From positions 1,556,001 to 1,620,000 of the forward strand of contig NZ_CP088020.1 of NCBI RefSeq assembly GCF_021049245.1: a stretch of DNA of 64,000 nt. The letters run 5' to 3'. Origin of the DNA: Radiobacillus kanasensis (GTDB lineage: Bacteria; Bacillota; Bacilli; Bacillales; Amphibacillaceae). This document shows positions 25,404 to 54,658 of the stretch, piece by piece; position 1 is the first letter of the stretch; each line of letters opens with the position of its first letter. Below the pieces are notes generated by a model. The model was given only the letters and a program-made list of their open reading frames with translations, made no database searches and was not told where the DNA came from. The position numbers were made by a program, and so were the translations under genes.

Positions 25404-25430
25404 ATTTCGCAGCTAATTTCTTTCTGTAAT

Positions 25431-25467
25431 AAAAAAAGCCTGCAGATATCATCTGCAGGCCCTTTTT
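25431..25467. terminator. terminator after the ABM-domain gene
   Basis: AAAAAAAGCCTGCAGAT / ATCTGCAGGCCCTTTTT, near-perfect stem with a three-base loop. Confidence 0.88.
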
Positions 25468-25771
25468 ACTTTCTACAATAGAAAGCAAAAAGGCAAAGGG
25501 AGAGGAGAAACCGGAGGAAGAACTTATGGGGAAACGTAAGTCTTCTCCGTGTTCAGAAGCAACTAATACGATTGGTTAGTCGCTTCAGTCGTTATTATCG
25601 ACTACATGGGGAAATTTATACATGGATCGTTCATTTTTTTCCATCTTATGAGAAAGTTTCTTTTCGTGCCTGTTCTAATCGTGGTTATACTACAAAAGGG
25701 GAGTTGCACTTCGTTTCTAACCCGTTTTATGATAGGATAAAGGGCGAAACACGAGGAAGAGGTGCTTTAGG
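25468..25771 (+). other. leader region of rsmD with weak small reading frames
   Basis: About 300 bp without a recognisable gene. A 17-codon frame at 25526-25579 has a good GGAGG site (MGKRKSSPCS...). It overlaps a TTG-started 67-codon frame (25572-25775) whose TGA overlaps the rsmD ATG as ATGA. Neither resembles a protein I know, and the second frame has no good binding site. They may be a degraded gene or an untranslated leader. Confidence 0.3.
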
Positions 25772-50388: not shown

Positions 50389-50624
50389 CTATGTACGACA
50401 TCAGCATGTATAAATTGGTTCCCATTTTGAAAGAAAATTAAAATTGATAGATTGCGACGTAACTCTAATTAGAAATTTATTGAAAGAATGATGAAGTGAA
50501 GCTTGATGCCGCGCTACGGCAGAATACTCCGCTTTCCACGGGTACGGCCTCAGCCTCCTCGCTCGCACAGATCGCTCACTGTGGGGTCTTCACCTCGTGC
50601 TTTCCCGCAGTCATTCATGTATCG

Positions 50625-50812
50625 CGAAAACAGCTATACACCACAGAGAATGAAAATAGTTATTGTGTGGCTATACTGATGCTACGGCTGGATGAGGAAG
50701 GTCGAGACTCCTTGGTGCGTGAGAGCCCTACCCGCAGTCTGACTCCTTCGACCACGGTGCATCACAGACTGTTGCTCCTTTTAAGGGAAGCACTCATGGT
50801 AGATTAACCCTA
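50625..50812 (+). ncRNA. putative IS110 bridge RNA, copy 1
   Basis: A 5' stem-loop (CAGCTATACACCACA near 50631 with TGTGTGGCTATACTG near 50674), then two internal loops. Loop 1: GAGACTCCT (50704-50712) is complementary to the right target flank AGGAGTCTC, and CCCGCAG (50731-50737) equals the left flank. Loop 2: TCATGGTAG (50795-50803) equals the element's right end plus core, and GACT (50768-50771) complements AGTC at the left end; a TGCT/AGCA hairpin lies between them. Boundaries are approximate. The design matches bridge RNAs described for IS110 elements; expression is inferred. Confidence 0.6.
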
Positions 50813-50866
50813 TTCTGGTTGTTGCGCCAGCCTCCATTATTATTTGCCGTAGAAAGGATGTTTTCA

Positions 50867-52090
50867 ATGGATGTAATCATTGAGAATGCTTGTGGTATGG
50901 ATGTCCACAAGGATACCATTACCGCTTGTGCCATTACAACAGAAGGAAAGGAGATTGAAACTTTTTCAACTAAAACCATATATCTAATTGAGTTGGTGGA
51001 CTGGGTGAAGAAACATAAGTGTACCCATGTGGCAATGGAAAGTACAAGTGTCTACTGGAAACCCATTGTCAATCTACTAGAAGCAGAAGATATTGAATAT
51101 CTAGTTGTGAATGCTCAACACATTAAGGCTGTCCCCGGGCGTAAAACGGATGTGAAAGATGCCGAATGGATAGCCAAATTACTTCGTCACGGTTTACTTA
51201 AAGCTAGTTTTATTCCTGATCGAAACCAACGAGAATTACGTGAACTTGTTCGTTATCGTCGAAGTATTATTGAAGAGCGTGCCAGACAATATAATCGGAT
51301 TCAAAAAGTGTTAGAAGGAGCTAATATCAAACTTGGTTCAGTTGTTTCTGACATTATGGGAGTTTCTGCTCGTGATATGCTTCGATCCATATCCGAAGGA
51401 AATGATGATCTCGAAGAGTTAACAACCTTTGCGAGAGGAGTAATGAAGAAGAAAAAGGATGAATTGAAACTCGCACTTCAAGGGTATGTTCAAGAACACC
51501 AACGGTTCATGATAAAAACGATTCTAGATCATATCGATTTCCTGACGGATCAAATCGATAAACTAGATAAAGAGATAGCGAAAAGGATGGAAGACTCTCA
51601 AGAAGATATAGACCGTTTAGATTCCATTCCTGGTATTGGGAGAAAAATGGCGGAACAAATGCTTGCAGAGCTTGGTACAAATATAAAGGAGCAATTTCCT
51701 ACTGCACCTCAAATGTGTTCATGGGCTGGATTAGTTCCTGGAAATAACCAAAGTGCTGGAAAACGTAAATCTTCTAAAACGTTGAATGGAAACAAGTACC
51801 TTAAATCAGCACTGATTGAAGCAGCTCATTCTGTTCGAGGATCCAAAAACTACCTTGGTGCACTTTACCGGCGAACAGCTTCACGTAAAGGTAAAAAGCG
51901 TGCAGGAATCGTTGTAGCTCATGCGATATTACGAATCTCCTATTATCTCTTAACACGAAAAGAAATGTATGTAGATTTAGGAGAAGATTACTTCGACAAA
52001 CAAAGACAACAATCCGTTGTTAAGCATTCACTACGAAGATTAGAGAGTTTAGGTTACACAGTGACAATTGTGGAACCAAAAGTGTCTTAA
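50867..52090 (+). CDS. IS110-family transposase/recombinase, copy 1
   Basis: A 407-residue DEDD recombinase. The RuvC-like domain holds Asp 12 (GMDVHKD), Glu 58 (AMESTSVYW), Asp 95 and Asp 98 (GRKTDVKDAEW). A coiled coil follows, then the C-terminal Tnp domain with the SIPGIGRKMAEQML helix-hairpin-helix-like segment and the catalytic Ser 296 in NNQSAGKRKSS. All catalytic residues are present, so it looks active. I start at ATG 50867, with AGAAAGGATG eight bases upstream. Confidence 0.95.
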   Translation: MDVIIENACGMDVHKDTITACAITTEGKEIETFSTKTIYLIELVDWVKKHKCTHVAMESTSVYWKPIVNLLEAEDIEYLVVNAQHIKAVPGRKTDVKDAEWIAKLLRHGLLKASFIPDRNQRELRELVRYRRSIIEERARQYNRIQKVLEGANIKLGSVVSDIMGVSARDMLRSISEGNDDLEELTTFARGVMKKKKDELKLALQGYVQEHQRFMIKTILDHIDFLTDQIDKLDKEIAKRMEDSQEDIDRLDSIPGIGRKMAEQMLAELGTNIKEQFPTAPQMCSWAGLVPGNNQSAGKRKSSKTLNGNKYLKSALIEAAHSVRGSKNYLGALYRRTASRKGKKRAGIVVAHAILRISYYLLTRKEMYVDLGEDYFDKQRQQSVVKHSLRRLESLGYTVTIVEPKVS

Positions 52091-52223
52091 AATTAATCTC
52101 CAACTTCATTAGATCTTAGAATGTGGCGCTCTCCTCAAAAAAACGAATGAGCTGCGTCTACCTTAGTATTGCCATTTTTCCATATATTAGAACCTTATTT
52201 TCATGGTAGTCATTCATGTATCG

Positions 52224-52411
52224 CGAAAACAGCTATACACCACAGAGAATGAAAATAGTTATTGTGTGGCTATACTGATGCTACGGCTGGATGAGGAAGG
52301 TCGAGACTCCTTGGTGCGTGAGAGCCCTACCCGCAGTCTGACTCCTTCGACCACGGTGCATCACAGACTGTTGCTCCTTTTAAGGGAAGCACTCATGGTA
52401 GATTAACCCTA
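52224..52411 (+). ncRNA. putative IS110 bridge RNA, copy 2
   Basis: Same sequence as the copy at 50625-50812, shifted by 1599 bp. Guide-like segments fall at 52303-52311, 52330-52336 and 52394-52402. Because it lies just downstream of copy 1, it can be reached by transcription across the tandem junction. Confidence 0.58.
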
Positions 52412-52465
52412 TTCTGGTTGTTGCGCCAGCCTCCATTATTATTTGCCGTAGAAAGGATGTTTTCA

Positions 52466-53689
52466 ATGGATGTAATCATTGAGAATGCTTGTGGTATGGA
52501 TGTCCACAAGGATACCATTACCGCTTGTGCCATTACAACAGAAGGAAAGGAGATTGAAACTTTTTCAACTAAAACCATATATCTAATTGAGTTGGTGGAC
52601 TGGGTGAAGAAACATAAGTGTACCCATGTGGCAATGGAAAGTACAAGTGTCTACTGGAAACCCATTGTCAATCTACTAGAAGCAGAAGATATTGAATATC
52701 TAGTTGTGAATGCTCAACACATTAAGGCTGTCCCCGGGCGTAAAACGGATGTGAAAGATGCCGAATGGATAGCCAAATTACTTCGTCACGGTTTACTTAA
52801 AGCTAGTTTTATTCCTGATCGAAACCAACGAGAATTACGTGAACTTGTTCGTTATCGTCGAAGTATTATTGAAGAGCGTGCCAGACAATATAATCGGATT
52901 CAAAAAGTGTTAGAAGGAGCTAATATCAAACTTGGTTCAGTTGTTTCTGACATTATGGGAGTTTCTGCTCGTGATATGCTTCGATCCATATCCGAAGGAA
53001 ATGATGATCTCGAAGAGTTAACAACCTTTGCGAGAGGAGTAATGAAGAAGAAAAAGGATGAATTGAAACTCGCACTTCAAGGGTATGTTCAAGAACACCA
53101 ACGGTTCATGATAAAAACGATTCTAGATCATATCGATTTCCTGACGGATCAAATCGATAAACTAGATAAAGAGATAGCGAAAAGGATGGAAGACTCTCAA
53201 GAAGATATAGACCGTTTAGATTCCATTCCTGGTATTGGGAGAAAAATGGCGGAACAAATGCTTGCAGAGCTTGGTACAAATATAAAGGAGCAATTTCCTA
53301 CTGCACCTCAAATGTGTTCATGGGCTGGATTAGTTCCTGGAAATAACCAAAGTGCTGGAAAACGTAAATCTTCTAAAACGTTGAATGGAAACAAGTACCT
53401 TAAATCAGCACTGATTGAAGCAGCTCATTCTGTTCGAGGATCCAAAAACTACCTTGGTGCACTTTACCGGCGAACAGCTTCACGTAAAGGTAAAAAGCGT
53501 GCAGGAATCGTTGTAGCTCATGCGATATTACGAATCTCCTATTATCTCTTAACACGAAAAGAAATGTATGTAGATTTAGGAGAAGATTACTTCGACAAAC
53601 AAAGACAACAATCCGTTGTTAAGCATTCACTACGAAGATTAGAGAGTTTAGGTTACACAGTGACAATTGTGGAACCAAAAGTGTCTTAA
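52466..53689 (+). CDS. IS110-family transposase/recombinase, copy 2
   Basis: A 407-residue protein identical to the copy-1 transposase, with the same DEDD residues and Ser 296. Start ATG 52466. No frameshift or stop, so both copies are potentially functional. Confidence 0.95.
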   Translation: MDVIIENACGMDVHKDTITACAITTEGKEIETFSTKTIYLIELVDWVKKHKCTHVAMESTSVYWKPIVNLLEAEDIEYLVVNAQHIKAVPGRKTDVKDAEWIAKLLRHGLLKASFIPDRNQRELRELVRYRRSIIEERARQYNRIQKVLEGANIKLGSVVSDIMGVSARDMLRSISEGNDDLEELTTFARGVMKKKKDELKLALQGYVQEHQRFMIKTILDHIDFLTDQIDKLDKEIAKRMEDSQEDIDRLDSIPGIGRKMAEQMLAELGTNIKEQFPTAPQMCSWAGLVPGNNQSAGKRKSSKTLNGNKYLKSALIEAAHSVRGSKNYLGALYRRTASRKGKKRAGIVVAHAILRISYYLLTRKEMYVDLGEDYFDKQRQQSVVKHSLRRLESLGYTVTIVEPKVS

Positions 53690-54658
53690 AATTAATCTCC
53701 AACTTCATTAGATCTTAGAATGTGGCGCTCTCCTCAAAAAAACGAATGAGCTGCGTCTACCTTAGTATTGCCATTTTTCCATATATTAGAACCTTATTTT
53801 CATGGTAGGAGTCTCCGTATTCTGCCTACGCTCGGGAATGGCTTTCTGATAGTTATTTTGAACATTGCTGGAATAGTACAAGTTGATTGTGACATTCAGT
53901 CCTCTATTTTTATAAAAAGTGACAGTCCAGAGGGGCTGGTCCTTTATAATTACGAAAAAGCACCGACACGTGCTCTTTTAAATCAAATAAATGATCAGTT
54001 GTTCTATATATAGGTCTAAAACAAGATGAAAAGGTAAAAAAAGGAACAGGTTTCCGTCTGACTATAACCTCTTAGTAGCATTATATATTATCTACCACAT
54101 ACGGTATGTTGATTGGAGTGGAGGGTAATCGACTCCGCGAAAATAAAGCCCGGTTTTCTTCGTGCAATGTCTATTCTAAGAAGATTTTCTTGTCCTCCCT
54201 CAGTTAGATTTGATTTACTCACAAATGCTCGCTGCGGGAACAGCACGAGTTGAAGACCCCGCAAGATGCACCTGCGTCTTCTAGTAACGCTTTGAAGTAA
54301 GCTTCCTCGGTGCAAGGCAGCAAAGATGATCACTCGATGTAGTAGCCTGGCTGAGGCCGTGCCCGCGGAAAGTGATTATCCGCAAGGGAAATCAACATCG
54401 TACACACACCGAGCAGTCACCAAACCGATGGTTTTGTAGTAACTTTTATTATTTCGTTACGTCGCAATTTATATCAACTACTATTTAAAATTCATTGCTT
54501 GAAAAATCAACAATCTTTTAGAACACAGCCTTTTCTATAAAAGGGCAAGTGGTCTACTTATAAGAGATCGATTGATGAGGTAGTTGTTGCAATGGGATTC
54601 ATTTCTAATTATTATGATGATTGATTTACAGAAATAGACACTCCATTGGTTTAAAATA

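Follow-up and report, generated by a model that had tools for sequence, protein, structure and literature searches.

We analysed a 64,000-nucleotide stretch of Radiobacillus kanasensis (contig NZ_CP088020.1, positions 1,556,001 to 1,620,000; hereafter, the window), which contains two head-to-tail units of an IS110-family insertion sequence (50611-52209 and 52210-53808; each is 1,597 bp plus AG, with 0 differences between them). Each unit has 256 nt of non-coding sequence upstream of its recombinase gene and 117 nt downstream. An earlier reading of the sequence alone (the original prediction) had claimed that the leader of the first unit is a working bridge RNA with core AG, whose two loops match the element's own target and donor sequences. 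By direct reading, we confirmed the left flank CCCGC-AG and the two segments of the target loop (GAGACTCCT and CCCGCAG), at the positions claimed. The letters of the two donor segments (GACT and TCATGGTAG) are also right, but their coordinates were one off and are corrected in Table 1. The right flank does read AG-GAGTCTC, but it adjoins the end of the second unit, and the tandem dimer had not been named.

The genome contains 10 copies of this element, at 100% identity or nearly. Nine were found by pattern, and the tenth (L009) has a variant left end. Because the two units in the window share one site, the 10 copies represent nine sites. Comparing the guides with other insertion sites had been proposed as a check, and all nine sites match: the left flank is CCCGC-AG at 9/9 and the right flank is AG-GAGTC at 9/9. 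The next base is T in five of the nine right flanks and G in the other four, so that four continue as GAGTCG instead of GAGTCT and the constant part is only AG plus GAGTC. One short target sequence in one orientation, with a core dinucleotide at 9/9 sites, is a trait of the IS110 family. The target lies within a GC-rich dispersed repeat (50496-50608 and 53809-53835 of the window), and the genome contains 31 intact sites of the 12-mer CCCGCAGGAGTC, as compared to 0 for a reversed control pattern.

The target guides change along with the flanks in relatives of this element. We considered 159 genomes from the same family (17 with a match at E ≤ 1e-40) and a further 80 loci from named genomes, the best of 568 that were confirmed. 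This gave 114 rows, of which 85 (72 distinct) had a parsed left pair; we dropped the other 29, for which 3' guide and left flank were not both parsed, as well as the inner tandem junction (L004 right and L005 left) and the right flank of L120. In 69 of the 72 distinct guide/flank pairs, the 3' target guide and the left flank carry the same five bases immediately before AG. The most common type (CCGTT with CCGTT) accounts for 41 of the pairs, and the match is exact in 28 of the other 31. At least one exact left-flank partner was found for 10 of the 11 guide types. The mean identity of 3' guide and left flank is 0.992, versus 0.736 if the pairs are permuted (the maximum of 2,000 permutations was 0.80, so 0/2000 were as good).

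On the other side of the core, the 5' guide is complementary to the right flank: across 77 distinct pairs, there are 73 complementary bases at position +1, 63 at +2, 39 at +3, 69 at +4, and 9 at +5. When we permuted 57 distinct short pairs position by position, the association of 5' guide with right flank had p from 0 to 0.004 at +1 to +4. Given the extent of this covariation, the sequence recognised by the family is about five bases, AG, and another four bases.

We also note two unusual relatives. In L118, the region of the 5' target guide has an internal duplication (GATCAAGATCAACT), which is possibly a step in guide change. L201 (from genome G189), an orphan-like RNA that is divergent, has a different target guide, CGGGC-AG, and its own left flank likewise reads CGGGC-AG.

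As for the donor loop, its 3' segment had been said to equal the right end of the element plus AG, and this holds in relatives as well. At 85 of 87 loci (which include ten copies from this genome and repeats of one element; there are 47 distinct leader/end combinations), the last five bases of this guide before AG are identical to the right end of the same element. The identity of donor guide and right end is 0.984, versus a permutation maximum of 0.933. Guide and right end change together from GGT to GGG, from GGT to AGT, and from CATGGT to CAGGGT. The two misses are L117 and L120, and the right end of L120 is probably mis-parsed.

The leaders also share a fold. For 28 leaders, RNAalifold gave an outer stem plus two further stems, one for the target and one for the donor, each with an inner hairpin, so folding with homologous leaders, which had been proposed as another check, found a conserved two-loop fold with a hairpin in each loop. 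(We also drew the outer stem by hand; it was out of register, and we took the RNAalifold consensus instead.) Across 94 distinct sequences that were fitted to the model, 96.2% of stem cells are paired, as compared to 27-46% if the partners are slid. Of 32 base pairs, 14 have changed on both sides, versus 3.8 in shuffles (0/500 as high). Upstream of the RNA, a promoter-like motif (ATGAAA-16-TATACT) was parsed in 25 of the 28 distinct leaders, with identical spacing in 17. A promoter scan of 50600-52230 listed it among 5 predicted sites, a number that is not above shuffles (mean 3.9). The left end also contains a palindrome, whose arms are complementary at 5-8 of 8 bases in 26 distinct arm pairs from relatives; it might be a binding site, or form a stem-loop at the 5' end of a longer RNA.

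The recombinase matches PF01548 (DEDD_Tnp_IS110, E = 1.5e-39) and PF02371 (Transposase_20, E = 3.2e-20), both above the cut-offs, and it scores 288.9 bits against NF033542 from NCBIfam ("IS110 family RNA-guided transposase"), for which the cut-off is 140. D12, E58, D95, D98, and S296 of the recombinase align with IS621, given the DEDD residue labels that we take to be those of IS621. In a tree of 24 proteins, which has several long branches and a midpoint root, the window element belongs to a clade of 14 rows (support 98/99) that is apart from IS4321 and the three rows that join it (100/99). The 14-row clade also holds a 447-amino-acid relative from Enterobacteriaceae, a clade of elements at 36% identity, L023, and a row from Phaeobacter. 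The longer non-coding region being upstream, and the recombinase not being among the IS1111 relatives, are traits of the IS110 group rather than of IS1111. In IS621, S241 is named as a catalytic residue (PMC11208158).

Together, the covariation of guides with flanks and with right ends, the two-loop fold, and the nine matching sites make it very probable that the leader is a two-loop bridge (or seeker) RNA of an IS110-family recombinase, with the core AG on the coding strand. These comparisons support the original prediction in the main, and the element is of a known kind. Neither of the two outcomes that had been named as contrary evidence (insertions at sites that lack a match, or no conserved two-loop fold among related leaders) was seen.

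Table 1. Features of the IS110-family element in the window, and related mini-elements at loci in other genomes.
Feature	Position	Strand	Comment
AG core, left junction	50609..50610		left flank CCCGC; read directly
IS110-family element, unit 1 (1,597 bp)	50611..52207	+	identical to unit 2
Left-end palindrome TGTATCGC..GCTATACA	50618..50640		upstream of predicted promoter
Predicted promoter ATGAAA-16-TATACT, inside left end	50650..50677	+	promoter scan
Bridge RNA, two internal loops, 154 nt	50682..50835	+	consensus fold, covariance model
5' target guide GAGACTCCT	50704..50712	+	complements top strand of AG + right flank
3' target guide CCCGCAG	50731..50737	+	identical to left flank + AG; expected to pair with bottom strand
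GACT, proposed as 5' donor guide for the left end	50767..50770	+	without covariation support
3' donor guide TCATGGTAG	50794..50802	+	same as right end + AG
DEDD/serine recombinase, 407 aa	50867..52090	+	domain matches, residue alignment with IS621
AG at junction of right end and left end, between units	52208..52209		circle junction fixed in chromosome
Unit 2, identical to unit 1	52210..53806	+	own bridge RNA at 52281-52434
AG core, right junction	53807..53808		right flank GAGTCTC
Mini-elements	L155-L161 (G056), L162-L164 (G091), L058:1073-1439, L165-L167, L206, L208, L209, L211-L220		both ends + bridge RNA

The window element resembles IS621 in that both have an IS110-family recombinase, an upstream RNA with a target loop and then a donor loop, guides that overlap a dinucleotide core, and repetitive extragenic targets (PMC11208160, PMC11208158). 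In IS621, however, the 5' guide is the same as the left flank and the 3' guide is the complement of the right flank (PMC11208160, PMC11208158), and in the window element, this order is reversed. The top-strand guide came first at 73 of the 73 loci that we tested (the mean identity, without the core, was 0.84, versus 0.16 for the IS621 order). The donor loop is also turned round, as the match to the right end is on the 3' side of this loop. When we read a copy of IS621 (L124) by eye, it had the published order, with one mismatch. The recombinases also differ in length (326 amino acids for IS621 versus 407 here), and the window element has a predicted promoter inside its left end and none listed across the junction of right end and left end (in a scan of 50600-52230, which spans the junction and listed the left-end site).

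The window element can also be compared to seeker RNAs. ISEc21 has an upstream non-coding region as well, and its RNA matches both strands of the target, but the bottom-strand match lies 5' of the top-strand match (PMC11187229), while in the window element the top-strand guide comes first. In the IS1111 elements ISEc11, ISKpn4, and ISPa11, the top-strand match precedes the bottom-strand match (PMC11187229), as in the window element, but the window recombinase is longer and lies outside of the IS4321 grouping. Judging from the sequence matches, both loops are opposite in order to those of IS621 and ISEc21, even though the RNA precedes the gene, as it does in IS110; this reversal, which the original prediction had not mentioned, appears to be new here. 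We found no report of the reversed order with an upstream RNA in the literature that we searched, preprints, figures, and most subscription papers aside, and Extended Data Fig. 10c of PMC11208160, which gives the guide patterns of six elements, may already draw it. Siddiquee et al. reported that one IS110 element has a different guide order from the IS1111 elements that they tested, and that the mechanism may differ (PMC11187229). If one clade combines the RNA position of IS110 with the order of IS1111, then the order need not follow the position of the RNA.

Other elements give partial information about the order. The 447-amino-acid relative (L125, L128) has the order of the window element at two sites that we read by eye. 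In the clade at 36% identity (L025, L027, L028, L029, and L040), we judged by eye, without statistics, that the 3' guide is similar to the left flank in 5/5 elements, with mismatches in some, and the 5' guide is clear in only some of the elements. For the L011 group (three copies in the genome of the window element), the flanks have no clear common target, and the guide order was unreadable. These readings leave out L127 (an Enterococcus element), L023, and L129 (the Phaeobacter element).

A covariance model of the RNA found 10 RNAs in this genome, or one per recombinase copy, as well as 42 matches in 11 of the 159 family genomes and at least 84 matches in 50 of 397 genomes from the same order (where up to 7 were scored in each genome). 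At E ≤ 1, it did not match L023, the 36% clade, the 447-amino-acid element, or IS621. In some genomes the RNAs outnumber the recombinases: G056 has 13 RNAs versus 6 close copies of the recombinase. We inspected 38 orphan-like loci (14 + 24) and set ten aside before counting: truncated full copies (L168, L199, L210), loci at contig ends (L195, L225), and loci without both ends of the element (L200, L201, L203, L204, L222). Of the remaining 28, all but L207, which has no right end, have both ends. These 27 are mini-elements of 194-395 bp, without a recombinase, from 13 genomes (Table 1). There was no recombinase match in the stretches L206-L220, and the positions listed for recombinases in G056, G064, G067, G091, and G011 do not overlap with any mini-element.

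The mini-elements are inserted at AG, and their donor guides match their own right ends in 24 of 25 parsed cases. The left guide is the same as the left flank in 20/26 (13 of 19 distinct); for L219, whose flank is cut by the start of the contig, the match was seen by eye. A terminator-like GGCTCAGCCTTTTT is present in 17 of the 27, and one scored as terminator-like. In G056, there are seven nearly identical copies of 394-395 bp (L155-L161), whose outer flanks are almost unshared; one is at a CCCAC flank. Their similarity to the full copy is about 97% over the left end and the RNA but only 77-78% at the right end, so they are possibly chimeras or products of gene conversion. A type of mini-element with a common right part was found again in several genomes. 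In G091, the donor guide and the right end are both ATGGG in three mini-elements and ATGGT in two full copies. Mini-elements resemble the miniature inverted-repeat transposable elements (MITEs) of bacterial insertion sequences in being short and non-autonomous, with the ends of the parent, but they also carry the parent's guide RNA. We found no IS110 MITE with a guide RNA in the literature that we searched, preprints, figures, and most subscription papers aside.

The simplest reading is that the mini-elements would be moved in trans by IS110 recombinases. Hiraizumi et al. found that the two loops of one complex come from two RNA molecules (PMC11208158), so mixing would be allowed. We propose, with a probability of roughly 65%, that this clade has bridge RNAs that are turned round (with the right half-site and the left end read first), so that guide order is separate from RNA position, and that it also has RNA-only mobile elements of about 370-395 bp (a guide RNA, both ends, and often a terminator-like site) that are moved in trans and have their own donor specificity.

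Alternatively, the mini-elements might be dead deletion copies that were never mobilised, which we consider unlikely. Two of them (L208 and L209) have shortened RNAs, three of the loci that we set aside resemble truncated full copies, and the guides of mini-elements fit their flanks less well. Also, in G011 and G053 the RNA is present without a recombinase match at E ≤ 1e-10; the copy in G053 looks like a truncated full element, and the RNA in G011 is an orphan. Up to 4 candidates were scored in each genome, so a partner recombinase may be overlooked or absent. Against this alternative are the seven nearly identical copies in G056 at loci with almost unshared outer flanks, the recurrence of one type with a common right part in several genomes, and the insertion at AG with donor guides that match the elements' own right ends.

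The other alternatives concern the RNA itself. If the active RNA came from the other strand, then the reversed order would be a strand error. The promoter on the + strand is only predicted, and the 58 A-C or C-A stem cells on the + strand would be G-U on the other strand. However, there are more G-U cells (105) on the + strand, which is a lean and not proof (the model was built for the + strand); the promoter-like motif upstream lies on the + strand; and on the + strand both guides end, rather than begin, in the core, as do those of IS621 if read likewise. So a strand error is very unlikely. It is highly improbable that the leader is mainly a cis-acting messenger RNA leader that regulates translation of the recombinase: it does lie directly upstream of the recombinase gene, possibly in one transcript, but 27 mini-elements retain the leader and the ends without the gene, and the guides track the flanks and the right ends. 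Least probable of all is that the matches between leader and flanks reflect chance or a captured target repeat, with the site being found by the protein alone: because all nine sites are in one repeat family (with the 31 further intact 12-mer sites), the constancy of the flanks in this genome does not count as independent proof. But the comparison of guides and flanks in relatives largely contradicts this alternative, as 10 of 11 guide types there occur with a left flank that matches exactly, and donor guides agree with the right ends of their own elements.

Several results limit or weigh against our interpretation of the leader as a bridge RNA. Three of the 72 left pairs mismatch, and positions +5 and +6 of the right flank do not covary with the 5' guide (57 distinct short pairs), so the 9-nt complement in the window exceeds the family rule. 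Within this genome, several copies share repeats farther out on the right side, so the sites are not all fully independent. The alignment that was used for fold covariation leans towards the structure, and when the sequences were re-aligned without structure, the two inner hairpins came out again, as did four pairs close to the target stem (partly out of register), whereas the long-range stems were not recovered; also, folding of the single sequence is no better than shuffles (z = 0.33). Finally, GACT had been claimed to pair with AG plus the left end, but this 5' donor guide does not track a T/C change at the left end of relatives, so the 4-nt pairing is without covariation support. The right donor guide of IS621 pairs discontiguously (PMC11208160, PMC11208158), and in the copy of IS621 that we read, the discontiguously paired donor guide corresponds to its left end. 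A weak contact of the 5' donor guide with the left end is possible.

We observed sequence matches, their covariation, a shared fold, and site specificity; from these, we infer that the RNA works, as had been predicted, which includes its expression, its binding by protein, catalysis, a circular intermediate, and the strand that is cut first. In the proposed mechanism, the second loop would specify the donor, with its 3' guide pairing with the right end of the element. By homology with IS621, the recombinase would swap strands at AG, and a circular element (right end, AG, left end) would enter CCCGC-AG-GAGTC. Viewed from the RNA, the reaction can be the same as that of IS621, except that the element goes in with the opposite orientation. 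Since both loops have the element reversed with respect to the RNA, the products would stay consistent.

The tandem dimer may have arisen when a circle inserted beside a resident copy, or by homologous recombination. Insertion of a circle would be feasible because either junction retains one full half-site plus AG. Just one of the nine sites in this genome has a tandem dimer, and none was seen among the listed flanks of relatives. In L049, downstream of the recombinase gene, the final ~24 bp of the right end occur twice in all, with AG after each occurrence; this is possibly the remnant of a collapsed tandem. At Rfam's gathering thresholds, the only match in the window is an ordinary ylbH leader RNA (RF00516, at 25429-25552), and there is none at the IS110 leader.

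If our interpretation is correct, then how guide order relates to RNA position becomes a testable question. The relatives also provide many natural pairs of guide and target that differ in up to five bases, which are test material for programmable recombination. And if the mini-elements are mobile, then everything that RNA-guided movement needs in cis would fit in less than 400 bp.
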